Origin: a virus
Virus record (IMG/VR): IMGVR_UViG_3300011114_000573
Location: 1 to 24,504 of that record
Length of the DNA: 24,504 bases
Reading direction: 5' to 3' (one strand)
Under the pieces are notes generated by a model. The model saw only the letters and a program-made list of their open reading frames with translations, was not told where the DNA came from and did no database searches. Position numbers and translations under genes: made by a program. Positions 6,318 to 23,465 of this stretch are shown here, one piece after another. Every line of letters begins with the position of its first letter. Position 1 is the first letter of the stretch.

Positions 6318-9278
6318 CTACTTACCAACTCCAGTCATAGCTAATAGTCGTAACCCACTTGAACTCCCTGCTGGTGCTGTGAATACATAAGACCAGAATA
6401 AGCTAGAGTTAGCTGGTGTGCCAGTAGAAGTGTGCGAGAAGGCTGTTAAGTCATCGGTGGCAATTGCCAGACTGCCTGACCAGCTTCCTGTTACTGCTGT
6501 ACTGGTTATTGTAATTGCTGGTGTTTGGTCGGCAGCGTTCTTTCTAAATGTTAGCGTTCGTGTATTAGTAGAGCCTGGTGCAGCAGACAAGTCAGCTCGC
6601 AAAGCAATAATTGTGTGCGTTACTGCCAAAGATGATATTAAACTCTCAGTAGCGTTCCAAGCATCATAGCTAGATGAATATGTAGTACCAGATACATTTG
6701 CACTATCACCACCAAAGACTATTCCATTACCTGCTGTGTTTGATTGGTACTCGCACGATATAGCAACCCTTAGGGCAGCACTTGGAGCTGTACCAGCACT
6801 AGGTACAATTTTCCAATAAAGTGTATCGGCACTAGCTGGTGTAGTTCCTGTTACAGCCACCGTACTAGCACTGGTATTAAATGCATTAGAGCTATCAAGC
6901 ACCATTGAAATAGCTGTATCAACACCACCTTTAACCAAAGTAACAGTATAAGTGCCAGCACCAGTCAGCGTACCATCTAGCAATTTACAGTAAGCAGTTT
7001 TAATCGTACCGCTATCATTAGGCATTGTAGATGTTGCTGGTCCAGCCGATGTGCTAAGACCAGCAGCTTCTTGTACTCCATTATACCTAGTAGCTGTGGT
7101 ACTAAGGGCTGTGATTGAGCTTGCATACCAAGCCTGATTTGCACTTGTTACTGCTAATCGCCATTTGTTACCAGTAGAGCTGGCTGGTGTGCCAGTCGGT
7201 AAGTTTTGAATATACAAGTTAGTTCCAGCATCAAAATTGATTGCTTGTGTTGTATTAGTAGCTGTTACTGCTGCACCAGTTATTGTTGCTGGTATATTTC
7301 CAGAAACAGACATTTCTCTGGCAGTAACACCACCAGGTGCTGTCGTTACATCAAATCGTAGGTTAGAGTAGGCTGCGACACTTGGTGAAACGATAGCTTG
7401 ATTAGCTGCGGTTGTTCCCCAAGCAGTAGCCGAGCCACCGTCCATTGGCATATACCTAGCAGTAGCCGCCATAGCTTGAGAGTTGCCCATCATTACAGGC
7501 CATTGATAACCTGTTATTCCATAAAGTGAATAAAGCCTAGTAGTTTCTGTGGTAAATGAGTCCATATTCACAGGCAAAGTACCAGTATAAGCGTAGGACA
7601 ATGAATAAGATGTACCAGTTATTGTGTCGTAATATAAAGAGCCAGCACTATAAATTCCTAAAGTATTGAGTGAGTAAGCAATCCTATAACCTGCTGCTGG
7701 CAAGTTTGGAAAAGATGAAAAGAAGTTTGCGGCAGGAACACCAGAAACTGCTAAAGAAGTGTACATTAAAGAGCCAGAGCTATCATAAATACCAGCTACA
7801 TTAGCACTACCACCGCCATTAACAGTACCCACTACGGCAGCCAGATTACCAGTGGCAGTTAAAGTTGCATCTGAAGCTAAAACTACATTTCCAGAAGCTA
7901 CAAAAGAAGCACCAGTAGTTGTATAGCCAAAGGTAGGGTCAATCACTATTGGGTAAGTGGCATTGTCTATAAAATCTTGGGGTATAGTAATGCGCATTTC
8001 AGTATCTATATCTATATCACCCCAGACTTCCCAGCCAGTCGCATCTTTTATGATTGGTCGATATATATGGAACGCTTTGCCAGCCTTGTACTCATTGTTC
8101 TGCTTACTTTCGTGGTATACAGCATACGAACCTGTTACTCTAGGGCTTTGAAACTCAGTCTTTACTTTGTCATCAGGTATTGCTGGTTGTTTGCCAAATA
8201 TCAATCCTTTAGTTTCAATCGACATTGTATAGACATTGGTATCAGGCTTAGTAGCTAGAGTAATATCAAACTCAAAGCCATTCTCATTTTGCTCTGATGC
8301 AGTCAATCGCCAGACATCATCTCTCTTGCCATTTACAATCCAATTCTCGTTATTATGTGCTATTTCTATCTCAGCAATCTTAGCTTCTTCGGCTAGGGTA
8401 AATACTCTCGGCACTAATGGCAGTCCATACAATTCAGCATAGCGTTCTATAATCTCTGCAACAATAGTATCTGGTAGTGTATCTGGTAGCCCATAAGCAT
8501 ATTGGTCGCTTCGAGGTACAGCATTGGGTTTGTTAGAGTACGCCAATGCACCATTATAATCGTGTCCAAGATTTAGATAGGCGTAATACTGCCCACTAAA
8601 AAACCCAGTAGAGAAAAACTTAACATCTTTATCGCCATCTTTATAATATAATTTATATGTATGTTCTTTATGATAAGCCTCTATTCCATATCTTGCTAAT
8701 ACCTCTTTAATAGCAGTAATAGTAAAGTTATGTATCTTGTCCGTGTCATCTTCTTTATTGTAATGGACTTCTATTAGTATCAGTTTGTTGTCCATTGTCA
8801 TTGGGTCGTTCCAGTCAGTACCAGACAATCGTACTTCAGGTATATCTAGCTTGCTTCGGTCTAAAAACTCGTTGGCATTATAAAAGCCATAGTACATCAT
8901 CGCCCTTTGATTTGAGGAATATATATGTATTGTATGACCCCATTTGAAGTATCTATCAACTTCATAACCAGCAGCAATTCTCTGTGGGCTTATCTCGCCT
9001 TCGTCTATTAGTGATATGTAGGTGTCTGGTGTAGTAGTGCTAACAAGTGGCTCAAAGCTGGCAGATACATCGCCCTGTTCCCATATGGCCTTATCGCCAT
9101 CTAGTGTCATCGTGTGGGCTGTTTCATCGTAAATAACACCAACCGATAAATTGACTTCATTGTCCCAGCCCTTAATCTTTACTCTAGGCAGGGCTTCTGG
9201 TTGCTTTTCATCACCAACAACAGTTTCCAAATGCCCTACTGGGTCAGCCGAGTATGTTGTATCGTCTATTGGGTTCAT
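6318..9278 (-). CDS. Large tail-fibre/adsorption protein with unrecognised N-terminal domain
   Basis: A 986-aa protein with two different halves. Residues about 1-440 are charged and mixed alpha/beta, rich in Tyr, Asp and Lys, ending in a segment of the type TYPIVIDPTFGYTTTG (about 436-452), which in many phage surface proteins marks the junction to the distal part. Residues about 450-986 are Ser/Thr/Ala/Gly-rich with repeated beta-strand patterns and pseudo-repeats (for example DTLYWKIVPSAGTAPSAALR versus NSSLFWSYVFTAPAGSSSGL), typical of fibre shafts and carbohydrate-facing domains. A receptor-binding or fibre role is inferred. The N-terminal domain was not recognised. AAGGGG lies a few bases upstream of the ATG. 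It follows the 662-aa fibre-like gene by 12 bases in the same transcription unit. Confidence 0.6.
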   Translation of the reverse strand: MNPIDDTTYSADPVGHLETVVGDEKQPEALPRVKIKGWDNEVNLSVGVIYDETAHTMTLDGDKAIWEQGDVSASFEPLVSTTTPDTYISLIDEGEISPQRIAAGYEVDRYFKWGHTIHIYSSNQRAMMYYGFYNANEFLDRSKLDIPEVRLSGTDWNDPMTMDNKLILIEVHYNKEDDTDKIHNFTITAIKEVLARYGIEAYHKEHTYKLYYKDGDKDVKFFSTGFFSGQYYAYLNLGHDYNGALAYSNKPNAVPRSDQYAYGLPDTLPDTIVAEIIERYAELYGLPLVPRVFTLAEEAKIAEIEIAHNNENWIVNGKRDDVWRLTASEQNENGFEFDITLATKPDTNVYTMSIETKGLIFGKQPAIPDDKVKTEFQSPRVTGSYAVYHESKQNNEYKAGKAFHIYRPIIKDATGWEVWGDIDIDTEMRITIPQDFIDNATYPIVIDPTFGYTTTGASFVASGNVVLASDATLTATGNLAAVVGTVNGGGSANVAGIYDSSGSLMYTSLAVSGVPAANFFSSFPNLPAAGYRIAYSLNTLGIYSAGSLYYDTITGTSYSLSYAYTGTLPVNMDSFTTETTRLYSLYGITGYQWPVMMGNSQAMAATARYMPMDGGSATAWGTTAANQAIVSPSVAAYSNLRFDVTTAPGGVTAREMSVSGNIPATITGAAVTATNTTQAINFDAGTNLYIQNLPTGTPASSTGNKWRLAVTSANQAWYASSITALSTTATRYNGVQEAAGLSTSAGPATSTMPNDSGTIKTAYCKLLDGTLTGAGTYTVTLVKGGVDTAISMVLDSSNAFNTSASTVAVTGTTPASADTLYWKIVPSAGTAPSAALRVAISCEYQSNTAGNGIVFGGDSANVSGTTYSSSYDAWNATESLISSLAVTHTIIALRADLSAAPGSTNTRTLTFRKNAADQTPAITITSTAVTGSWSGSLAIATDDLTAFSHTSTGTPANSSLFWSYVFTAPAGSSSGLRLLAMTGVGK

Positions 9279-9290
9279 ACTACCCCTTTC

Positions 9291-11279
9291 TTAAAGATAC
9301 CAAACCATTGCTTCTAGTGCGGTAGCTGGTGCGGTATTTCCACCACCTGATGTAGCGGCAGCAATTGACCAGCCAGCGTTACTAAATGTAATACCATTAG
9401 CCATTTCTATGTTAGCAGCCGAGCCAGCAGGTATAGCGAATACCAATAGGGCAGTTGATGTACCAACAGTAACTGAAGCAGCAGCGATATTATAAACCAT
9501 TACATAGCTAGTAACGGCATTAGGATTAAATATGTAATAACCATACAATTTGCCAGCAGTAGCCTTAATAACCTGTGCTGTTGCTGTAAGTGCGGTATAT
9601 GTATCGCCAGAGGTAAAGTTAGCAACGCTTAATCCACCTGCGGTATGTGGCTGTACAGTTACTATCATTTTGCGGTCTAGTGTCATACGAGCTGCACCAG
9701 CATCGCCCTCATCTACGCTATCGGTGGCAGTTTCATCAGCTAAAAAGCCTGCTGGCCGTACTTTAGTTGTAGCAATAGTGAAAGCAGCGTCATCTGCAAC
9801 TAATTGACTATCTTGTACTGCGAAAGTACCAGCATTGGTTACAGGTACGGAGTCATCTGTTGCAATAGTAACTCTTTGGACAGTTGCACCTCTCGCACCA
9901 GTTCCAAAAGCAGGTGCAACACCATTGACTGTCAGAACATCTACATCACCGATATTGTTTGTGCCTGCTGGTAATGCACTAGCAATGTTCTTAACACTAA
10001 CACCAGTGGTATCACCCCTTAGTCTATCCCAAGTACTTCCGTTATAAACATACCCATTAGATGCTGTTTCAAGAACACCTTTTGCGTGAGCTGTTTGTGC
10101 ATCAGCGTTCAAGCCTTGTTGTTTTAATCTGTCCCAGACTGTATTAGTGCCGTCCCAGCCCATTAAGAAGCTACCTACGGCTGGTACAGTTGGATTGGCT
10201 GTTGTATCTGCTAGTGCTGCGGCTGCTGGTAGCTCAGTGTCGGCAGTAACTGTTCCAGAAGTTACTACTACATTGTGTCCATCTGGTAATTGCTTCGCTG
10301 AAGTTGCTGCACCAGTCGGTAGTGATACTGTGCCTGATATGTTATTTACATTGAGCTTGCCTGTGCTATCGCCAGACAATGATTGTATGTTAGTTCCATC
10401 ATCAACCATAGCGATTGTACCTGTGGCTGTACCTCTGGCTGCACCATCAGCGTATTGTGTTCCACCACCGCCACCACCACCACCACCAGTTGTAGGTAGA
10501 TTTCCACTAGCATCTAATTGTACCTGTATGGCTACTCCATTTATGTCCTTAAAAGGTAAAACATAGTTTGGTACAGGAAAAGTCATATTATCTATTGACC
10601 CTTTAACACCTGCTAATGCTTCTATAACTGCTGTGTCATCTTGTTCTGGTAAAGTAACTATATTATCTCGTACGGCTTTTTCAAGTGATGTAATGGCTTT
10701 TTCAAACTTAGTAGTATCTATCATTACTTTTGGTGCTGCAACATTTATAACAGGCGTTTTATCATCTACAGACAGTAAGTCTTTTATATCATTTAATACA
10801 TTTGTGTAGTCAATATCAGTATCACTTGTTTCATTATCTACTAAGGATTGAATTGAACTTGAAAGTTTATTAAGAGATTCAGGTAGAACGTTTAATTTAG
10901 AGGACTTAAAATCACTTCCTGCTTTAGCAATAGAAGTTAATAAATCTGATACATCTTTAGCGGCTTGTAATAGTTGTGGGTCTTTACTGACGACTGTCGC
11001 AACAACTAAGTTATTTAGTGCAGTTGCTACTTCGTTTTGTGAGTTAGTTACTGCTTGTATTATATCTTTTCCAGCAGTAGCAACGGACTGATTAACTTCT
11101 TTAGTGGCTTTTTCGGTCTTTTGGGCAGCATCTCTTACAGTACCAGCAACTACACCAGCACTACCTGTTACAGCACTAACTACTAATCCTGCGTTGTCTT
11201 TTTGTAATTCTTTAGCAGACTGTTCATCTACTTTTTTCTTTTGTTCAGTGTTGTAGGCGTTTATTTTTTCTTGGTCCAT
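9291..11279 (-). CDS. Tail-fibre-like protein with coiled-coil stalk and glycine linker
   Basis: A 662-aa protein. Residues 1-190 are strongly helical (Lys/Glu/Gln/Ala) with heptad-like coiled coil. A short region follows, and about nine consecutive glycines start near residue 265. The beta-rich C-terminal half carries motifs frequent in phage fibre and virion surface proteins: NGSTWDRLRGD near 415-425, two copies of a W-D-x-L/R-L context, TLDRKMIVTVQPHTAGGLS near 540-560 and LYGYYIFNP near 588-596. The plan is stalk, flexible linker, receptor-facing head. It is a plausible fibre because it lies next to the 986-aa fibre-like protein. It has AGGA ten bases before ATG and is the first gene after a TAACTGGGC promoter. 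Confidence 0.65.
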   Translation of the reverse strand: MDQEKINAYNTEQKKKVDEQSAKELQKDNAGLVVSAVTGSAGVVAGTVRDAAQKTEKATKEVNQSVATAGKDIIQAVTNSQNEVATALNNLVVATVVSKDPQLLQAAKDVSDLLTSIAKAGSDFKSSKLNVLPESLNKLSSSIQSLVDNETSDTDIDYTNVLNDIKDLLSVDDKTPVINVAAPKVMIDTTKFEKAITSLEKAVRDNIVTLPEQDDTAVIEALAGVKGSIDNMTFPVPNYVLPFKDINGVAIQVQLDASGNLPTTGGGGGGGGGTQYADGAARGTATGTIAMVDDGTNIQSLSGDSTGKLNVNNISGTVSLPTGAATSAKQLPDGHNVVVTSGTVTADTELPAAAALADTTANPTVPAVGSFLMGWDGTNTVWDRLKQQGLNADAQTAHAKGVLETASNGYVYNGSTWDRLRGDTTGVSVKNIASALPAGTNNIGDVDVLTVNGVAPAFGTGARGATVQRVTIATDDSVPVTNAGTFAVQDSQLVADDAAFTIATTKVRPAGFLADETATDSVDEGDAGAARMTLDRKMIVTVQPHTAGGLSVANFTSGDTYTALTATAQVIKATAGKLYGYYIFNPNAVTSYVMVYNIAAASVTVGTSTALLVFAIPAGSAANIEMANGITFSNAGWSIAAATSGGGNTAPATALEAMVWYL
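10461..10487 (-). repeat. GGT/GGC/GGA microsatellite encoding a polyglycine linker
   Basis: Nine consecutive glycine codons, mostly GGT, inside the 662-aa fibre-like gene. They separate the coiled-coil half from the beta-rich half. Such trinucleotide runs are prone to slipped-strand length change in whole codons, which would alter linker length without breaking the frame. Confidence 0.7.
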
Positions 11280-11291
11280 TTATAATCCTAA

Positions 11292-11311
11292 GCCCAGTTA
11301 TGTTGATTATA
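11292..11311 (-). promoter_or_regulatory. Promoter with TAACTGGGC start element (fibre unit)
   Basis: On the minus strand, a perfect TATAAT (11311-11306) is followed by five bases and TAACTGGGC (11300-11292), then AGGA and the ATG of the 662-aa fibre gene. The -10 box overlaps the stop of the upstream glycosyltransferase-like gene, and the -35 region, which is weak, lies inside that gene. Confidence 0.7.
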
Positions 11312-12008
11312 TACTATTAAGTGTCTTTATTATACCATTATCGCATCGAACAATTTTCTTCTCACTATTATCATTGTATTTTATAGCGTTTGTATTGCTG
11401 CCGCCAGATATAGTTTCGTGTCGTTCATGGTATTGGTGTGTGGCACGAATATCATCTCTCACTTCAAAAGGCAACTTTGCTCGTTTCCAGCGTTCGCCAA
11501 AATCATTGTCCTCGTAAGCATAGCCCTTCATAAAGTCTTCGTCCCAACCATTTATTTTTAATATATCTTCTTTCCTGAACATAGCAAGGAAATACATAGC
11601 AGGTGTTTCACCTCTAAATGTAGTGCTGACCAATACACTTAAGTTACTGTTTATGTCTTGGTCATCTACGGAGCAGACAATGTTCTTGTCTAACAAATCG
11701 CTGAGTTGTTCCAGTACCTCTGTTGTAGGTTTAACTTCTGGGCTTGTGATTATGATGTTATCGTACTTAGACTCTCTAACACCTATGTTAAACGCTTTAC
11801 TGGGGTTGAATCCGATACTGTGTTTATAGGGAATAATTCGTACATCTTTCATCAACTTATTATCATCTAAATAACGCCCTATTTGTAACTCACTTCTAGT
11901 AGGAATAATAAACTCTTTAACCTGTGGCATTTCATCATAGATTAGTTTAGTTACTTTGAACTGCTCTAACCTATTTGTGTCCATTGGCATAATTATTGAG
12001 AAAGACAT
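11307..12008 (-). CDS. GT-A glycosyltransferase-like protein, last gene of sugar cassette
   Basis: A 233-aa protein with a GT-A-like beginning (SFSIIMPMDT), a typical sugar-nucleotide-transferase helix near 63-77 (IGFNPSKAFNIGV) and, at 154-174, the pattern GWDEDF-x-x-x-YAYEDNDFGERW. That pattern is characteristic of the acceptor-side region of GT7/GT27-type galactosaminyl- or galactosyltransferases. The position where a metal-binding DxD would be expected (about 86-92) reads TSPEV, so metal-dependent activity is uncertain. The ATG overlaps the upstream TAA (TAATG), with a strong GAGGAG five bases before it. It closes the sugar operon and is directly followed by the fibre promoter. Sugar specificity cannot be told. 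Confidence 0.6.
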   Translation of the reverse strand: MSFSIIMPMDTNRLEQFKVTKLIYDEMPQVKEFIIPTRSELQIGRYLDDNKLMKDVRIIPYKHSIGFNPSKAFNIGVRESKYDNIIITSPEVKPTTEVLEQLSDLLDKNIVCSVDDQDINSNLSVLVSTTFRGETPAMYFLAMFRKEDILKINGWDEDFMKGYAYEDNDFGERWKRAKLPFEVRDDIRATHQYHERHETISGGSNTNAIKYNDNSEKKIVRCDNGIIKTLNSI

Positions 12009-12376
12009 TATAACTCCTCTGCAAATGTATCTACATCTTTTTTATTAAATTGCTCATCACACCATATCATACAAATACAACCATCGTCAGTAGCAGTAAT
12101 TCTATGTGTATGGTTGGGTGGAATAGTAGCAGTCATTGGCTTGAACCCTGAAAGTTGAGCACTCATCACGTCGCCAGTCTGTCTGTTCTTTGAGTCTATT
12201 GTTGCAGAACCATACATAACTAGGAAATGCTCTGTTTTTCGTTGGTGGTAGTGATTGCCTCTAGTTTCAGTAGGGTTGATTATGATATACGAAACTTGTC
12301 CGTCGTTCGGTAACTTAAACGCTTCTATGAAAGAACCTCTGGTGTCTTTTTTAACTTCTAGTGGAGATAGTTTCAT
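12008..12376 (-). CDS. Stand-alone cupin similar to the C-terminal domain of CapF/FnlB
   Basis: A 122-aa single-domain cupin. Counted from the upstream GTG at 12385, it has D14-T-R-G-S-F, then TRGNHYH with His45 and His47, Glu52, and IPPNHTH with His94. These give the HxH(x4)E...H metal site. The pattern (RGxFxE, GQxS, TRGNHYHxxKxExFLV, IPPxxTHxI, W-x-x-E-x-F...DT) matches, from memory, the cupin half of CapF/WbjC/FnlB, the bifunctional enzyme of UDP-L-FucNAc synthesis. There the cupin epimerises C3 of the 4-keto intermediate before an N-terminal reductase acts. That reductase domain is absent here. A WxcM-type sugar isomerase is the alternative. I chose the ATG at 12376, whose ATGA overlaps the previous stop; GTG at 12385 is possible. 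Confidence 0.7.
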   Translation of the reverse strand: MKLSPLEVKKDTRGSFIEAFKLPNDGQVSYIIINPTETRGNHYHQRKTEHFLVMYGSATIDSKNRQTGDVMSAQLSGFKPMTATIPPNHTHRITATDDGCICMIWCDEQFNKKDVDTFAEEL

Positions 12377-13470
12377 TTTTGCCACACATACTTATTAACA
12401 TACGGAGTGTAGCCTAAAACTACTTTTAGAACTCTGTCAGAACAGTTATCTACGTTATACCCATCAGGAATAGTGGTAGGGGTTTCTATAATTTCTAGGC
12501 AACTTAAGATATTCTCTTTATTAACCCCTGTCATCAGGATAGAGCCAGCGTCAGTAGCTTCAGCTCGTTCGTGGGCATTTCTAATAGTTATAGCAGGGAA
12601 ACCTAGTATTGCTGATTCTTCTGCAATAGTACCAGAGTCAGAGATTACGCACTTAGCGTTCATTTGTAGTTTATTGTAGTCCAAGTAGCCTAGTGGTTCT
12701 ACAAACTTAACTCTTTTGTCTAATCTTATGCCTTCTAGTTTTTTTCTAAGTCGTGGGTGGGTTGAAACAATTACAGGCAATTCGTACTTCTTGGCAATAG
12801 CGTCTAGTGTGTCTAGTAAAATAGTTAGATTCTCTGGTATCTCGGTATTTTCATCTCTGTGTAAACTGACTAGAAAGTAGGAAACTAAAGCAGTTTTAAG
12901 ACCCATATCTTCTAGCACAGAACTTGCTTTTATCTTGTCTATATGTTTATTAAACACTTCTTTCATTGGACTACCCATTATGAATAGTCGGTCTTTAGCT
13001 ATACCCTCATCTCTTAGGTACAGTCGTTGTCCCTGCGTGTAAACCAGATTTACGTCAGATATGTGGTCCATTATTCTACGGTTTATTTCCTCTGGAACAT
13101 TGTCGTCAAAACACCTGTTGCCTGCTTCTAGGTGAAACAGTGGTATCTTCATCCTTTTAGCGATAATGCCACTCAAAGCTGAGTTAGTATCACCAAGTAT
13201 AACTACTGCGTCAGGTTCGTATAGTTTAAGCATCTTCTCTACTTCAAACATTATATTACCAACTGTTTCGGCTAAACTGTCTCCCTTGGTGTCAAGAATA
13301 TGGTCTGGGTGGCGTAAGTCTAGGTCTTTATAGAATATCTCATTTAACGTGTAGTCATAATTCTGACCAGTGTGTATAAAGGTATGCTCGGTGTGTTTGT
13401 CCAGCTTCTTGATTATCTCGGACATCTTTATTATTTCTGGGCGAGTACCCACGATTGACATAATTTTCAC
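12373..13470 (-). CDS. UDP-sugar 2-epimerase, CapG/FnlC (WecB superfamily)
   Basis: A 365-aa protein of full family length. Conserved blocks include VGTRPEIIK (7-15), HTGQNYD (33-39), LGDTNSAL (92-99), HLEAGNRC (113-120), SLHRDEN (202-208) and SDSGTIAEES (277-286), as in UDP-GlcNAc 2-epimerases. The C-terminal Tyr-Thr-x-Tyr-Val-Asn-Lys-x-Val-Trp ending and the GNRCFD variant fit the WbjD/CapG/FnlC branch, which converts UDP-L-PneNAc to UDP-L-FucNAc, better than WecB itself. It works in the cytoplasm on nucleotide sugars. The start is GTG (GTGA overlap with the upstream stop) with AAGGA six bases before it. The neighbouring CapE-like and cupin genes support the L-FucNAc assignment. Confidence 0.8.
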   Translation of the reverse strand: MKIMSIVGTRPEIIKMSEIIKKLDKHTEHTFIHTGQNYDYTLNEIFYKDLDLRHPDHILDTKGDSLAETVGNIMFEVEKMLKLYEPDAVVILGDTNSALSGIIAKRMKIPLFHLEAGNRCFDDNVPEEINRRIMDHISDVNLVYTQGQRLYLRDEGIAKDRLFIMGSPMKEVFNKHIDKIKASSVLEDMGLKTALVSYFLVSLHRDENTEIPENLTILLDTLDAIAKKYELPVIVSTHPRLRKKLEGIRLDKRVKFVEPLGYLDYNKLQMNAKCVISDSGTIAEESAILGFPAITIRNAHERAEATDAGSILMTGVNKENILSCLEIIETPTTIPDGYNVDNCSDRVLKVVLGYTPYVNKYVWQK

Positions 13471-14363
13471 AATAAATCCTTTACTGCTTTAACGTCTAAT
13501 CTACTAGTATTCTCTGAGGTAAAAGCCATAGTTTCAGCCTCAACTCCCACACTAAAATACTGGTCATAGTTCATACCCCGTGAATCAGGTTTTACTCTGT
13601 AATAAGTACCCATATCTTCTGTTCGTAACATTTCTTCTGCTGATACCAAAGTTTCGTGCATCTTCTCTCCGTGTCTTATACCAATAACTTTGTAATCTTC
13701 TGCGATAGATAGTGCAAGGGTTTCCATAGTACAAGCAGGTGCTTTTCTTACAAATAACTCACCAGGTTCTCCTTTTTCTAAAGCATACATTACTAAATCT
13801 ATTGACTCATCTAGCGACATTAAGAACCTAGTCATATTTGGGTTTGTAACAAGTAAGGGTAAACCTTGTTTGTAACGTTCTTCCCAGATAGGAATTATTG
13901 AACCTCTTGAACGCATTACATTTCCGTACCTAGTTACTAAAGCACCCTTAGAGATAGCCAACTTCTCCATCATAGCTTTAGACACACCCATAGCGTTTAT
14001 TGGATAAACAGCTTTGTCTGACGATAGGCAGACTACTCTAGCACCAGCCTTTAATCCAGCATCTATAACGTGTTCTGCACCAAGTATGTTTGTCTTGACT
14101 GCTTCAAATGGAAAGAACTCACAGCCAGGCACTTGTTTGAGAGCGGCTGCGTGGAATACACTGTCCTGTCCAGCCACAACTTCTCCAACCCTACTTCTAT
14201 CTCTTACATCACCTATCTCATATCTAACGTTGGGGTATTCTTTGCGCATTTCAAATTGTTTATTTTCGTCACGACTAAACACTGTTAGTTCGTGTTCGTC
14301 TTTGTATCGTTTGACGAAAGCATTACCAAAAGAACCAGTACCGCCTGTGATAAGTATTTTCAT
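13467..14363 (-). CDS. UDP-GlcNAc 4,6-dehydratase/5-epimerase, CapE/FnlA-like
   Basis: A 298-aa extended short-chain dehydrogenase/reductase. The NAD(P)-binding GGTGSFG lies at 7-13, HAAALKQVP at 71-79, SSDKAVYPINAMGVSK at 114-129, RYGNV at 145-149, and a C-terminal GIRHGEKMHE plus R-x-E-D-M-G-x-Y-Y-R-V. Where most family members have YxxxK, it has M125-x-x-x-K129, the substitution also known in CapE-type enzymes. The CEFFPxEAVKTN block and the C-terminal SxNTxRLDV are typical of WbjB/FnlA/CapE. At 298 aa it is somewhat shorter than the roughly 340 usual. The product would be a 4-keto-6-deoxy UDP sugar, the first step towards UDP-L-FucNAc. It has AAGGG upstream and an ATGA overlap with the preceding gene. 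Confidence 0.82.
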   Translation of the reverse strand: MKILITGGTGSFGNAFVKRYKDEHELTVFSRDENKQFEMRKEYPNVRYEIGDVRDRSRVGEVVAGQDSVFHAAALKQVPGCEFFPFEAVKTNILGAEHVIDAGLKAGARVVCLSSDKAVYPINAMGVSKAMMEKLAISKGALVTRYGNVMRSRGSIIPIWEERYKQGLPLLVTNPNMTRFLMSLDESIDLVMYALEKGEPGELFVRKAPACTMETLALSIAEDYKVIGIRHGEKMHETLVSAEEMLRTEDMGTYYRVKPDSRGMNYDQYFSVGVEAETMAFTSENTSRLDVKAVKDLL

Positions 14364-15073
14364 TTTAACCCTTCTATGTATTTTACTTGCTCATCGTAAC
14401 CACGGTCAAACATTGTCTTCTTGTAATAGTCTTTATAGTCTTTCCAGTTAGTCTTGTCTGCAAAAGTATAACTTAGTCTTTCGTCCATATGTCCTACCAG
14501 CCACCCTTCGTTTTTAATTTGCCGAGAAAACCTAGTGTCTTCTTGTAACTTACTATTAGAACCTTCCCACGGTGTTTCATCATATCTTGCCCCTGTATCC
14601 CATATTGTGCGACGTATGATATTTGGACCACCGACGCATCCAGGAAACTCTATTAACCCCATATTATTATAATACTGTGGAACTTTGTTTTCTCCACCAT
14701 CAAAATCTAATCCCAACTGTCCTAGTCGGTCTATCTCAATAAAGTATTCCTCTGCCCTAGCGTCCCACCCTTTTTCAAAGTGCATATCATTGTCTAATCT
14801 CATTAGGTGGGTGGCTTGTGGGTAATCTTTTAATCCCTCAGTCCAGCCAATGTTACAAGCTTTGCCAGGGTAGTAGTTCTTTGGATTAAGAATAAGTTTA
14901 TCTATGCGTCCTCGTTTCTTTAGACTCTGTAACGCTTTCTGTGTGCCGTCAGTAGAATTGTTATCAACAACCACTAAGTAATAGGGTGATTGTATTGTGG
15001 CAAATAAACTCCGTAGTGTTTTATTTGTATAGTCTAGGCGTTCGTAGGTGATTAGACAGATTAAAAGCTTCAT
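14360..15073 (-). CDS. Family 2 glycosyltransferase (GT-A)
   Basis: A 237-aa protein with a clear GT2 signature: an N-terminal LLICLITYERLDYTNKTL strand-helix, VVDNNSTDGT at 36-44 for nucleotide binding, the helix around PGKACNIGW (69-77), and a metal-binding D94-N-D96 in LMRLDNDMHF. A later GPNIIRR...W segment and E-D at about 178-180 fit the acceptor/catalytic-base region. No transmembrane segments are visible, so it is probably a soluble or peripheral cytoplasmic enzyme using a nucleotide sugar. It overlaps its neighbours by ATGA on both sides, with GAG-type spacing upstream. It most likely attaches a sugar made by the downstream epimerases, but donor and acceptor are unknown. Confidence 0.78.
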   Translation of the reverse strand: MKLLICLITYERLDYTNKTLRSLFATIQSPYYLVVVDNNSTDGTQKALQSLKKRGRIDKLILNPKNYYPGKACNIGWTEGLKDYPQATHLMRLDNDMHFEKGWDARAEEYFIEIDRLGQLGLDFDGGENKVPQYYNNMGLIEFPGCVGGPNIIRRTIWDTGARYDETPWEGSNSKLQEDTRFSRQIKNEGWLVGHMDERLSYTFADKTNWKDYKDYYKKTMFDRGYDEQVKYIEGLK

Positions 15074-15900
15074 ATTTCTATCTCATTCATATCTATTATA
15101 GTAAACCGTTTGGGAGGGTAGGTTGCTAATCCTTGTGCTACTAGGCTGTCTGCGTGCTTACGAGAGGTTGTAACACCCCCACTAGGCGTATCAACAACCA
15201 CTAGCTTAGTTTTAGCCCCCAAAGCCACTGGCTGGGCTTGTAGTGCTTTAAGGCGCATATTCTTAACTACCTTAGTCCACACTTCAATTTTATGAGCACC
15301 ATTATTAGAACCACTATCGCCCAGAGCAATTAGTTTGCGTTGTCCTAGTTTAATAGGCAGAACCTTAATAACAATTCCATTGTTCCAAAGTTTTATTGAA
15401 TAGGTTATGTCGTGCAATCCATAGCCATCAACATCACCGTCTAGTGCCACAAGTTTAACTGCTTCACCATAGTTAAGTATTGACCAGCGTATCTTATCTG
15501 TAAAATACGGAGCTTTAAGATTATTAAAGATTTTGCGTTTAACAAGCAAGCAACCAGTTCCACAAAACACTACACTTCCACCACCATCATAAAATACCGA
15601 ACCTCGTCCAGTTTTTGTAACAGGGTAATCACAGGTAATAGCGTTTGCATTCTCAGCCAACAAATCTTGTAAAATGCCGTCTGGTAATACCATATCATCT
15701 TCCACGAACCAAAGATGAGAAATAGATTTATCTTTTAGAGCCAGTTGTGTTGGTGTTTCAAAACACTCAGGAATTGGCTTACCGTGAGAAAAGAAAAACT
15801 TGTGGGGTATGCCCTTTAGGTTTCTAAGTATCTCGTCAGCAGTCTTGGAAAAGATTAACCCTCTACTCGGTAGAATAATTGCGACTTTAACGGACGACAC
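15070..15900 (-). CDS. Glycosyltransferase-like protein, second of a tandem paralogous pair
   Basis: A GT-A-like protein of about 276 aa, paralogous to the gene just upstream. Both share AIILPSRGL-x-F near the N-terminus, PECF-x-x-PT, a metal-site EDDM (about 67-70 here), GLHD-x-x-x-x, and GQRKL-x-x-LG followed by GxHKIE-x-W/L-T. A C-terminal tail of about 60 residues, absent from the paralogue, begins after AKTKLVVVD. I chose the GTG at 15900 because GGAGAG lies exactly six bases upstream and the overlap with the preceding gene shrinks to 14 bases. An ATG at 15918 would add six residues. It is in the same operon as the sugar-nucleotide genes. Donor and acceptor are unknown. Confidence 0.65.
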   Translation of the reverse strand: MSSVKVAIILPSRGLIFSKTADEILRNLKGIPHKFFFSHGKPIPECFETPTQLALKDKSISHLWFVEDDMVLPDGILQDLLAENANAITCDYPVTKTGRGSVFYDGGGSVVFCGTGCLLVKRKIFNNLKAPYFTDKIRWSILNYGEAVKLVALDGDVDGYGLHDITYSIKLWNNGIVIKVLPIKLGQRKLIALGDSGSNNGAHKIEVWTKVVKNMRLKALQAQPVALGAKTKLVVVDTPSGGVTTSRKHADSLVAQGLATYPPKRFTIIDMNEIEI

Positions 15901-16738
15901 TAAAATCTCTCCCATCATTTAAGTACGGTTGGTCATTATCGTCATAAGAGATAAATGGCGGTATATCTTCCCAGAACTTAACGTTTTGTACTCTATTCAT
16001 AGCACCTAGAAATAACTCAGAGTTTTCTGGAGTAATCATACCCGACACAAGGTTCTCACCTACTTCAGTCAGTTCAATTATTTTATGCTGACCCTGATTA
16101 GAGTGTATCTCTCCAAGTTGTTCTAGTTTACGCTGTCCAGCTTTTTGTTTCATTGGCATAATAGGTACACCAGCAGAGTAAAGCACCATACCAAAGTTTA
16201 AGTCGTGTAATCCATAGAATATCTTAGTAAGTTTGCGTGGCCAGAAATGTATTGTGTCTTTATCTATAAATGGATCAAATGTTCTGTCTGTGCGCCAGAT
16301 TGGTTTTTCAAACTGTTCTAGCACTTCTCTGGCTACAAGCATAAAACCAGTTCCAGTCCAGTACGCAAATCCATTAGGGTCGTGTAAACAAGTGGAATCG
16401 CCATTCTGCTGAAACGGATAATCTAAAGCTGTAACAGGATAGTTTTTATTAAACATTCTATTTAGAACACCTCTAGGAATAATCATGTCATCTTCAACTA
16501 TTAAAACAGCGAAGTTATCTTTATCAGCTAAAGCTCTCTCAGTTGGTTCGTTAAAACACTCTGGTAATCCTTTTTCGTGTGACCAGTATATTTCGTAGTC
16601 TAGCCCTTCAAGCTCGCCTAAAAGTTCCTCTAATGTTTCAGAGAACATTAACCCTCTACTAGGTAAAATAACTGCTAGTTTAGTAGCTTCTGGCTTAGTA
16701 GCCGTCGGGATTGTCTGATGCTTTTGTTTCACCGACAT
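15887..16738 (-). CDS. Glycosyltransferase-like protein, first of a tandem paralogous pair
   Basis: A 283-aa protein with an N-terminal Thr/Lys-rich extension (1-20), LAVILPSRGLMF (21-32), a GLPECFNEPT segment near 57-66, and V-E82-D-D-M in a hydrophobic strand as the likely metal/nucleotide-sugar site. GTGFMLVAREV (about 129-139), GLHDLNFGM and the GQRKLEQLG...GQHKIIELT block are shared with the next gene. This is the pattern of soluble GT-A enzymes, though not a standard GT2 signature. Its start lies 44 bases inside the upstream gene. No better start was found, although a GTG two codons in is possible. The pair probably arose by tandem duplication followed by strong divergence. Confidence 0.65.
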   Translation of the reverse strand: MSVKQKHQTIPTATKPEATKLAVILPSRGLMFSETLEELLGELEGLDYEIYWSHEKGLPECFNEPTERALADKDNFAVLIVEDDMIIPRGVLNRMFNKNYPVTALDYPFQQNGDSTCLHDPNGFAYWTGTGFMLVAREVLEQFEKPIWRTDRTFDPFIDKDTIHFWPRKLTKIFYGLHDLNFGMVLYSAGVPIMPMKQKAGQRKLEQLGEIHSNQGQHKIIELTEVGENLVSGMITPENSELFLGAMNRVQNVKFWEDIPPFISYDDNDQPYLNDGRDFSVVR

Positions 16739-17153: not shown

Positions 17154-18029
17154 TTAGCTTTTTACGACGTAACCAAAGTTGCTTCGTAGTGATGAGTGAC
17201 CGTAAAGTACGTCCACTGTTACTAACCAGCCCAGGTACTCTTGCTTGTATTGAGCCTGAGTACGAGGTTGTGACTGAACTGCGACAGCCCATGATTCTTT
17301 GTGGAAGAATAGGTGGTTGTATTCGTCAGTTACAGTATCAAGGTAAACAAGGTTCTGTGAAACGTATACAGTTGCACCGTAAATAGTTCCAAGCTTGCCA
17401 CCTTTAATTGCTTCGCCAGTTCCAAGTGCGTCATAACGAACGAACTTGTCGATAGCCAATAGTTCTGATTCACCTTTAGGGTGAACAACTAGACTTCGGT
17501 CTGTGCGAGGTGCTTTGTTTTCGCTTAGGTAGCGGTTTACAGCCAAGATGCAAGCATCGTTTATTGCAGTACCGTAAGTACCAACAGTCTGTGAAGCCGT
17601 TTTCCATGTGCTTGTCATGTTTGTTGCTATGTCTGAGTCAATCTTTTCAGATATTGCATATGCGGCTGCTTGTGTGTAGTCGCTACGAATGTCGTAAGCT
17701 GCTTGAATCTTTAATAGGTCTTCAACTAAGAATGAGCTTTCGTAGTGCTTGTTCAAAGTTATAGTAGTTTTTGTGTCTGTGTTGTAGTTTAGTGTCACTA
17801 CAGTGTTTTGTGCTTTTAGGTTTGCAGAAATGGTGCTAACATTTGGTATTTCCAAAGTTTGACCAGCTGACTGCACATCTGCATCATAGTGCTTAATGAG
17901 TGGTAATAGAACAAGGTTGCTCTTTACAAACATTAAAACTTCTTTGCTCCAGATGTTAGGACGAAAAACGTTTCCAGCTGTTACGCCAACGTTTACGTTA
18001 CCAGAACCATATGCTCCAGTTGTTGCCAT
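17154..18029 (-). CDS. Major capsid protein (HK97-fold type)
   Basis: A 291-aa protein in the expected place after the scaffold-like gene. The N-terminal arm is Gly/Ala/Val-rich, followed by FRPNIWSKEVLMFVKSNLVL, a typical opening of phage coat proteins. Next come a Lys/Thr beta-hairpin region (NTDTKTTITLNKHYESSFLVED), a long helical spine (YDIRSDYTQAAAYAISEKIDSDIA), a DRSLVVHPKGESELLAIDKFV domain and a C-terminal beta part. This pattern is seen in HK97-fold coat proteins of podovirus-like phages. It assembles the icosahedral shell on the scaffold. No protease gene is visible. A GAAAAGAG-type ribosome binding site lies before ATG, and a strong terminator follows. It is probably the most heavily expressed gene in the window. 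Confidence 0.85.
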   Translation of the reverse strand: MATTGAYGSGNVNVGVTAGNVFRPNIWSKEVLMFVKSNLVLLPLIKHYDADVQSAGQTLEIPNVSTISANLKAQNTVVTLNYNTDTKTTITLNKHYESSFLVEDLLKIQAAYDIRSDYTQAAAYAISEKIDSDIATNMTSTWKTASQTVGTYGTAINDACILAVNRYLSENKAPRTDRSLVVHPKGESELLAIDKFVRYDALGTGEAIKGGKLGTIYGATVYVSQNLVYLDTVTDEYNHLFFHKESWAVAVQSQPRTQAQYKQEYLGWLVTVDVLYGHSSLRSNFGYVVKS

Positions 18030-21180: not shown

Positions 21181-22545
21181 CTATCTAAAATTAACATACT
21201 TTTCTCTTTGATTTACCAAGTCTTGATTTATTTTAGGTTCTGGCATACTACCAGGTCGTCTGTTCATCAGCCCATATCTTAATGCGTCGTAAAGGTGGTC
21301 CTCAGCCCTTGTGTCTATATCCTCTGGTCTGTTTATATCAACAGGAAGATTAGGAAAAGTTCTAATAAAATTAACGCAGTTAGAAAATACCTGTAATCCA
21401 GGGATACCGTCAGCTTTAGGCATCAAGGCTTCGTGTATAGCGTTCTTTCCTGCTTTCCTATCGTTGTTCGCTGGTTGAAATATAAGATTATTTCTCTGAA
21501 AAATTGCGGCTACTGTTTCTCCAGTTTCAGCAGAGCCAATTTGTTTCCATAAAGAGGGGTCAGCTAGTCGCATAGACAATCTATCGTCGCCAGTACCCAT
21601 TTCTATTACTTCGGCTTGTTTAGAAGCTGCTAAAGCGTGTTCATAAAACTCTTTGTATAAATATATTCTGTCTGAGCCAGGGTCAATCGCCAACCAAACT
21701 CCAGCAGCATACGAGTTATACCCCCAGTCATAAGCAAACCATCTAGTCCAGTGCTTAGGAATAGCAAACGGAGTAACAACATGCCATGGTTTACCCTCTT
21801 CTGTTTCCCTGCGCCACTCCTCAAAAGCCTGTCCTGCGAAAATATCCCAATCTCCGTCTAAATATGCCCGTCTTAGGTTAGGGTCGCTCAAACTAGACAG
21901 TTGTCTTGTGTAAGTATCTCTAAACTTTTGGTCTGGGTGGTCAGATACTTTAGCTGGTATGAATTGCCTAGTGTTTCCATGTCTATCAGTATAGATTGAT
22001 TCTGGAGCAGTTATGTCAATAAAGTAAGATTTAACCCAAGCGTGTCCAATGTTTCCAGGGTTAGTGGCACACATCACTTTAAGTGGTTGCTCGCCAGCAG
22101 TTCTAACACGAGTCTTAAGAAACTCATACTGTTCCAAAGTAAAGTGAGTTACCTCGTCTAATAAAAGTAAATGTATCTCAGCAGACTGATAGCGATACAT
22201 GTCAGCAGGGTTCTCTAGGTAGGCTAATTGAATAATACTTCCGTTAGTAAAAACAAAGGTTCTGTCCTGAGAGTTGTAATGCATACCCTTTGCTATGTTT
22301 ATATAGTCAGCACATTGTTTATAAATCTCTGGTATAACTGACTGTTTAAGTTCTGGAATAGTCTTTCTAAAAACATAAATCCTAGACTTAGGCCAACGCA
22401 TAGCATAAGTTATAGCCTCTGCCACAAGAGCAGCAGTCTTTCCTCCACCAGCAGCTCCCCCGTAAAGCGTTTCAAATGCCTCACTAGTATGGAACTTAGT
22501 CTGTCTAGGAGACGCGATATAATCTGGGATTTTAATCTGCGGCAT
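21181..22545 (-). CDS. terL: Terminase large subunit
   Basis: A 454-aa packaging motor. Walker A GGAAGGGKT is at residues 29-37, Walker B LLLLDE at 126-131, and the coupling motif ATNPG at 160-164. The RNase H-like nuclease domain begins with FAYDWGY (Asp273), with further acidic residues at about 329 (LADPSLW) and 416/420 (EDHLYDALRYG). All key elements are present and the length is normal. The protein cuts and translocates phage DNA into the procapsid through the portal. Its ATG lies 14 bases inside the small-terminase gene, so translation is coupled. Confidence 0.95.
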   Translation of the reverse strand: MPQIKIPDYIASPRQTKFHTSEAFETLYGGAAGGGKTAALVAEAITYAMRWPKSRIYVFRKTIPELKQSVIPEIYKQCADYINIAKGMHYNSQDRTFVFTNGSIIQLAYLENPADMYRYQSAEIHLLLLDEVTHFTLEQYEFLKTRVRTAGEQPLKVMCATNPGNIGHAWVKSYFIDITAPESIYTDRHGNTRQFIPAKVSDHPDQKFRDTYTRQLSSLSDPNLRRAYLDGDWDIFAGQAFEEWRRETEEGKPWHVVTPFAIPKHWTRWFAYDWGYNSYAAGVWLAIDPGSDRIYLYKEFYEHALAASKQAEVIEMGTGDDRLSMRLADPSLWKQIGSAETGETVAAIFQRNNLIFQPANNDRKAGKNAIHEALMPKADGIPGLQVFSNCVNFIRTFPNLPVDINRPEDIDTRAEDHLYDALRYGLMNRRPGSMPEPKINQDLVNQREKYVNFR

Positions 22546-23047: not shown

Positions 23048-23392
23048 TCATGCGTAACGGCAGCCTTTCTGCATACAGCGTCCTCTATCGTCTAAGGGTA
23101 TGCCATGTATCTTACATAGTTTAACAGCGTCAGCTGCAATACCAATAGATTCTTTAAGTTTATGGAATATCTCTGCTTTAGGAGTTACTACTCCAACAGG
23201 AGTTTGAATATTACTAGGTACATTTACCGAGTAGTTTATTTTGGGAGCTTGGACGACAGTCCCTACGATTCCAACTGCAGTTAATGAGTAAGCAACTCCG
23301 CCACGCTCTATCTCAACTTTATCGCCATGTAAAGCAGCATCAAAGCAGTTCTTTAATTCTTTCCTGAAGTTACCTACTGTCATGTACATCAT
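23048..23392 (-). CDS. Phd/YefM-like DNA-binding protein with C-terminal zinc-binding motif, no toxin partner
   Basis: A protein of about 114 aa. Residues 4-40 (MTVGNFRKELKNCFDAA, GDKVEIERGGVAYSLTAV) fit the Phd/YefM antitoxin fold: a start of strand, the Phe-Arg-x-x-Leu helix, then Glu-x-Arg-Gly-Gly and a strand. The middle (45-75) is Val/Pro/Asn-rich. The C-terminus has C93-x-x-H96 ... C106-x4-C111, a likely zinc site not part of classical YefM. No toxin gene is adjacent; terS follows. An ATG at 23440 would read through the operator repeats and precede the likely transcription start, so the start at 23392 (or 23383) is preferred. No clear ribosome binding site is visible. Role inferred: autoregulator of the leftward arm. 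Confidence 0.65.
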   Translation of the reverse strand: MMYMTVGNFRKELKNCFDAALHGDKVEIERGGVAYSLTAVGIVGTVVQAPKINYSVNVPSNIQTPVGVVTPKAEIFHKLKESIGIAADAVKLCKIHGIPLDDRGRCMQKGCRYA

Positions 23393-23439
23393 TGTACACG
23401 TTTGTACATAGTTGTACACGTTTGTACATAGTAAGTACA
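23383..23439 (-). repeat. Operator-like array of TGTACA palindromes, 10-bp period
   Basis: Five exact TGTACA sites begin at 23383, 23393, 23403, 23413 and 23423, and a degenerate AGTACA at 23434 extends the row. Part of it is a perfect 20-bp tandem duplication (23392-23411 and 23412-23431). TGTACA is itself palindromic, and the 10-bp spacing puts all sites on one face of the helix. The array covers the likely start site and first codons of the YefM-like gene. TGTACA is the known core operator motif of YefM. Confidence 0.85.
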
Positions 23440-23465
23440 TAGTTACTTAGCTACTGTAAGTTCAA
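23436..23465 (-). promoter_or_regulatory. Likely leftward promoter for YefM-like gene and terminase
   Basis: On the minus strand, TTGAAC (23465-23460), an 18-base spacer, and TATGTA (23441-23436). The start would fall near 23429, inside the TGTACA array, giving a leader made of operator repeats. Bound repressor would block it sterically. A second copy of the TTGAACTTAC sequence lies 20 bases upstream. Confidence 0.5.

Follow-up and report, generated by a model that had tools for sequence, protein, structure and literature searches.

A phage late operon carries CapE- and CapG-like genes together with only the cupin half of CapF

How might a phage complete a UDP-L-FucNAc-type pathway when it carries only one of the two halves of CapF? 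The question is raised by a linear virus record of 24,504 bases, analysed here as a whole and referred to as the window, whose minus strand holds a phage late operon running from terminase, portal, scaffold and capsid genes through glycosyltransferase (GT)-like genes and a trio of sugar genes to a further GT and tail-type genes. The trio comprises a CapE/FnlA-like UDP-GlcNAc 4,6-dehydratase/5-epimerase (13467..14363, 298 aa), a CapG/FnlC-like non-hydrolysing UDP-sugar 2-epimerase (12373..13470, 365 aa, GTG start) and a stand-alone cupin of the CapF C-terminal type (PF14667; 12008..12385), all on the minus strand. On the same strand, three GT-like genes precede it, namely GTa (15887..16738), GTb (15070..15918) and a GT2-family gene (14360..15073, 237 aa), and a fourth, with a match to Glyco_transf_7C (GT7; 11307..12008, 233 aa), overlaps the cupin stop and is followed by the tail-type genes. 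Since the gene for the terminase large subunit (21181..22545, minus strand) lies in the same operon, the sugar trio is phage-borne. The major capsid protein (17154..18029, minus strand), which served as the marker of the phage family, distantly matches the capsid proteins of cyanophage A-4L and Pf-WMP3. Upstream of the terminase genes, a 130-aa open reading frame (23048-23440) resembles, by eye, the N-terminus of a Phd/YefM-type antitoxin. No tRNAs were found in the window or its relatives except for one ARAGORN match inside GTa of a related locus (L008), which we took as spurious.

The assignments made for the three proteins in the preliminary description were borne out. For the first gene, TIGR04130 (FnlA) was the best family match and the best PDB matches were of the CapE type (4j2o and S. 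aureus CapE); the score is below the equivalog cut-off of that model (353 vs 730 bits), and judged by its sequence the phage protein is CapE-like, not a certified equivalog. In its active site MxxxK replaces YxxxK, with Asp-Lys before it (SSDKAVYPINAMGVSK), and its latch region (EDMGTYYRVKPDSRGMNYDQYF) aligns, at the sequence level, with S. aureus EDMGDYFRVPADSRDLNYSNYV; both the MxxxK motif and the latch region are marks of the CapE/FnlA subfamily (PMC3699295). The second protein found CapG (7ya2) as its best PDB match with 386 bits, compared with about 102 for E. coli WecB, and also scored above the WecB cut-off. As to the third, the proposed CapF C-terminal identity, as opposed to a WxcM-type one, held by profile, by PDB sequence search and by structure model alike: PF14667 (Polysacc_synt_C) scored 106.6 bits versus 34.6 for FdtA, the sole matches in the PDB sequence search were CapF residues 241-366, and the AlphaFold model (pLDDT 95.9) retrieved CapF entries as its top five PDB folds (rmsd 1.2-1.4 Å, E about 1e-12 to 1e-11), with FdtA ketoisomerases at E 2e-6 and an rmsd of about 9. 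A WxcM/FdtA 3,4-ketoisomerase was rejected on all three counts, and the aminotransferase that partners WxcM/FdtA is absent from the cassette. The Zn-ligand positions of the HxH, E and H pattern (H45, H47, E52 and H94) do not vary among 15 cupins from phages and cells. As it lacks the SDR half, the phage protein is not a member of CapF but only its cupin-type half, for which sequence and model predict C3-epimerase activity. In CapF, the Zn cupin carries out epimerisation first and apart from the NADPH-dependent reduction by the SDR domain (PMC5393024), which makes a stand-alone cupin mechanistically sensible. Within phage collections, the cupin matched only two records named 'Staphylococcus phage Kay' (OR849864 and OR844989); these hold CapE- and CapF-like genes and are probably host capsule DNA in phage records.

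The trio genes are consecutive and overlapping on the minus strand, as had been described. GT2 and CapE overlap by ATGA, CapE and CapG by GTGA, and cupin and GT7 join in TAATG; the CapG/cupin junction is likewise ATGA if the cupin starts at the ATG at 12376. This start (122 aa) is the likely one, given the overlap with CapG and its use by all relatives, the alternative GTG at 12385 adding 3 aa (125 aa). All three genes are under purifying selection, with dN/dS values against the related locus L002 of 0.04 (CapE), 0.08 (CapG) and 0.09 (cupin). Identity to L002 (window 12373-14363 vs L002:4411-6413) is 97% for CapE and 93% for CapG versus 73% for the cupin, which points to a recombination boundary at the CapG/cupin junction. 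The low dN/dS values and the recurrence of the three genes together in seven distinct phages of the family argue against a chance assembly, and these phages maintain the cupin part of CapF in the absence of its reductase part. The earlier argument that gene order shows a maintained unit has to be given up in that form: the content is conserved, but some relatives have the order CapE-CapG-cupin and others CapG-CapE-cupin, and a GT is inserted in some of the cassettes.

A capsid-based scan yielded 71 loci, nearly all of which share the core capsid-g115-GTa-GTb-GT2 followed by a variable sugar cassette. CapE, CapG and cupin occur together in seven distinct phages, those of the window, L002/L003 (the L003 record stops short of the cupin), L004/L005, L008, L012/L013, L029 and L071; a small GT is inserted in the cassettes of L002 and L012, and wherever the cupin was found in the family, CapE and CapG were there as well. 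Two sister phages, L007 and L009, share this CapE type but have no PF14667 cupin; they carry an RmlD-type reductase with a YxxxK motif, which in L009 sits after CapE at exactly the position of the cupin in L004. L057 also has an RmlD-type reductase, here alongside an RmlC/FdtA-like protein, and its dehydratases differ. Other family cassettes (L034, L048/L050, L068, L115 and L049) contain a dehydratase of the RmlB type (TDE motif), either together with CapG or by itself, and the sequence available for them shows no reductase. The stretch that separates GT2 from the GT7/tail genes (14360 to 11307 in the window) is a hypervariable nucleotide-sugar cassette across some 70 phages, its further contents including an SDR with a C-methyltransferase (L017, L058) and a member of the UDP-glucose dehydrogenase family (L021).

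Outside the family, the CapG scan retrieved unrelated phages with a dehydratase, CapG and an RmlD-type reductase, and the CapE scan an unrelated viral contig, L085, in which cupin, CapG and CapE are followed two genes on by a different SDR. The stretch L085:238-8863 also contains several GT-like genes, one of which resembles, by eye, a GT11 fucosyltransferase. Of the 18 phage loci that have both a dehydratase and CapG, 8 carry the cupin and 10 an RmlD-type reductase, and none carries both; the corresponding chance probability of 2e-5 presumes independent loci and makes the contrast look stronger than it is, as the loci share ancestry. Moreover, in six of these ten reductase loci (L120-L123, L126 and L127) the dehydratase is of a YxxxK, FlaA1-like kind, and it is divergent in L118 and interrupted in L116, such that the strict MxxxK comparison is one of eight cupin loci with L007 and L009. 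In L116, a 140-kb phage contig, the CapE-like dehydratase (7894-9999) is broken just after its active-site motif, STDK, by a long in-frame intein-like insert.

That the reductase half of CapF is missing, as the preliminary description had stated, was upheld for the window and for its relatives with the cupin. The cupin ORF, of only 125 aa, has no fused CapF-N domain, and neither CapF-N matches in the window or the other cupin records nor any CapF-type or other 4-keto-reductase in the window or the records from six other cupin-bearing phages could be detected. An RmlD-type 4-keto-reductase, the mark of the UDP-L-QuiNAc pathway and present in L007 and L009, was not found in the window either. 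Searches of the whole cupin-phage records with models for RmlD (PF04321), Epimerase (PF01370), CapF (NF047837), classical SDR (PF00106), Gfo/Idh (PF01408) and aldo-keto reductases (PF00248) recovered CapE as the sole SDR; the last three classes gave no additional match and were dismissed as the missing enzyme. Profiles built from phage reductases and cellular CapF-N found no match in the cupin-phage loci, and in leave-one-out controls known phage reductases were recovered at 1e-29 or better. Hidden reductases were sought among neighbouring proteins as well: GTa was ruled out by its GT-A fold, and GTb and g115 are core genes whatever the cassette and match no oxidoreductase family. The idea that relatives might harbour a reductase in the same operon fared unevenly: in L007 and L009 the RmlD-type enzyme is found instead of the cupin, and only the unrelated L085 pairs the trio with a different SDR.

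When bacterial and archaeal genomes were scanned for the cupin, both fused CapF (L089-L091) and stand-alone cupins of the CapF type came up, the latter mostly with a reductase gene adjacent. In L094-L103 the stand-alone cupin directly follows the reductase gene, which is of the RmlD type in L094, L095, L097 and L103 and of the CapF-N type in L096 and L098-L102 (Nitrospinota and archaeal genomes); this tally leaves out L104 and L105, the weakest matches, and the broken L093. Split CapF thus exists in cells, but with both halves.

The reading that we tentatively prefer, as the most likely one though with less than even confidence, is that the phage provides CapE, cupin and CapG and the host provides the C4 reduction. 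CapE would convert UDP-GlcNAc into UDP-4-keto-6-deoxy-L-hexosamine by dehydration and C5 inversion, the stand-alone cupin would invert C3, the host would supply NADPH-dependent reduction at C4, and CapG would invert C2 to give UDP-L-FucNAc or a close isomer, a donor that the neighbouring phage GTs would then use, most likely on virion proteins. What we infer here is the chemistry of each of these steps in the phage, the provision of the reductase by the host, and the acceptor. A reduced intermediate in the cupin phages is favoured by the CapG tree, in which their CapG falls into one clade with CapG of the RmlD-bearing L009 and L057, whose substrate should be C4-reduced. A precedent is offered by chlorovirus ATCV-1, which encodes just the first of two rhamnose-pathway enzymes, the host being predicted to supply the other (PMC5408694). 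Against host supply, none of the Fnl steps can be taken over by E. coli W3110 (PMC4838161), which implies that an unspecialised reductase of the host does not suffice; a host endowed with complete CapF would have cupin activity of its own, rendering the phage cupin redundant unless the host enzyme is of the QnlA/RmlD type; and it is odd that this very step should be omitted when RmlD-bearing phages have the complete pathway.

The main rival to host reduction is that no reduction takes place at all: CapE and the cupin, with or without CapG, would make a UDP-4-keto-6-deoxy-L-HexNAc that the phage GTs use directly, yielding a 4-keto glycan. We consider this rather doubtful. It would fit the finding that every step but reduction is phage-encoded in all seven family members, and that the RmlB-type (TDE) cassettes of the same family likewise come without a reductase in the available sequence; free keto-sugars, however, are reactive. 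Natural 4-keto HexNAc glycans are known from S. pneumoniae serotype 5 (PMC4838161) and from Pseudoalteromonas rubra, where loss of a reductase was proposed (PMC3210612). In the described pathway, on the other hand, C4 reduction precedes the CapG step (scheme in PMC3699295), and the CapG of these phages is shared with RmlD-bearing ones. The stronger version, in which reductase-free CapE-cupin-CapG is the normal route, virions are decorated with the keto-sugar and the RmlD-type reductase of the sister phages was exchanged for the cupin, we regard as doubtful.

Three further explanations carry less weight. The cupin might do something else, such as WxcM/FdtA-like 3,4-ketoisomerisation, or CapG might make UDP-ManNAc from UDP-GlcNAc, with no single L-FucNAc-type pathway resulting; the weak FdtA match of 34.6 bits and the occurrence of CapG with RmlB-like dehydratases, together with its score above the WecB cut-off, lean in this direction, yet PF14667 and CapF fold matches dominate, no aminotransferase accompanies the cassette and the cupin always travels with CapE and CapG in the family, making this unlikely in our view. 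We deem it similarly unlikely that the phages encode the reductase elsewhere, outside the sequenced fragments. All cupin-phage records are indeed incomplete, the window spanning 24.5 kb versus 37-42 kb reached by related records, but L004 and L005, identical over a 13.5-kb overlap and hence one phage, jointly cover about 30.7 kb without a reductase, and in every reductase-bearing phage found the gene lies in or beside the cassette. Highly improbable is a bifunctional CapE whose tightly bound NADP(H) also reduces its 4-keto product: PBCV-1 GMD, a viral SDR 4,6-dehydratase, does reduce its own 4-keto product (PMC5408694), but the CapE of cupin phages has the same MxxxK motif as that of the RmlD phages L007 and L009 and is mixed with it in a tree with few supported branches.

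As for the destination of the sugar, the adjacency of the capsid gene, the presence of four GT-like genes and our failure to detect a lipid-carrier or flippase gene in the operon suggest that the cassette serves glycosylation of virion proteins rather than synthesis of a surface polysaccharide. GTa, GTb and GT2 are core genes of the phage family. GTa is a GT-A-fold GT according to its structure model, among whose nearest solved folds are STIV A197, a virus protein, and collagen galactosyltransferases (modest TM-scores); GTb resembles GTa in sequence and is a probable GT-A enzyme. Neither matched Pfam or PHROG (15070-16738), and the two apparently represent an undescribed phage GT family.

The phage trio is a genuine variant, found repeatedly, of a pathway already known. 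It indicates that nature can separate the two activities of CapF, with some phages keeping one where sister phages keep the reductase, and the two groups allow a clean comparison of the contribution of each step. The predicted stand-alone C3-epimerase would also be a natural object for enzymology, and the system may be an example of a virus that depends on a single host enzyme midway in its own sugar pathway. Compared with the UDP-L-FucNAc pathway CapE-CapF-CapG (FnlABC, WbjBCD), the phage has the dehydratase/5-epimerase, the CapF-type cupin and the 2-epimerase with conserved active-site positions, but lacks the N-terminal SDR reductase of CapF and carries the genes in a late operon. With the UDP-L-QuiNAc pathway FnlA-QnlA-QnlB (PMC6467956), the window shares the dehydratase and 2-epimerase types, and L007 and L009 the RmlD-type reductase in addition; the window has the cupin where that reductase would be. 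Split CapF of cells (Nitrospinota L098-L101, Woesearchaeota L096) likewise features a stand-alone PF14667 cupin, which directly follows a reductase gene there, unlike in the phage. Finally, chloroviruses encode complete or partial deoxysugar pathways too (PBCV-1 GMD/GMER; ATCV-1 UGD plus a host enzyme; PMC5408694), and there the pathways are linked to capsid glycosylation, a link that in the phage is suggested by the genes; chloroviruses, however, are giant viruses of eukaryotes with unrelated genes, whereas here a tailed phage carries a pathway of the L-HexNAc type.
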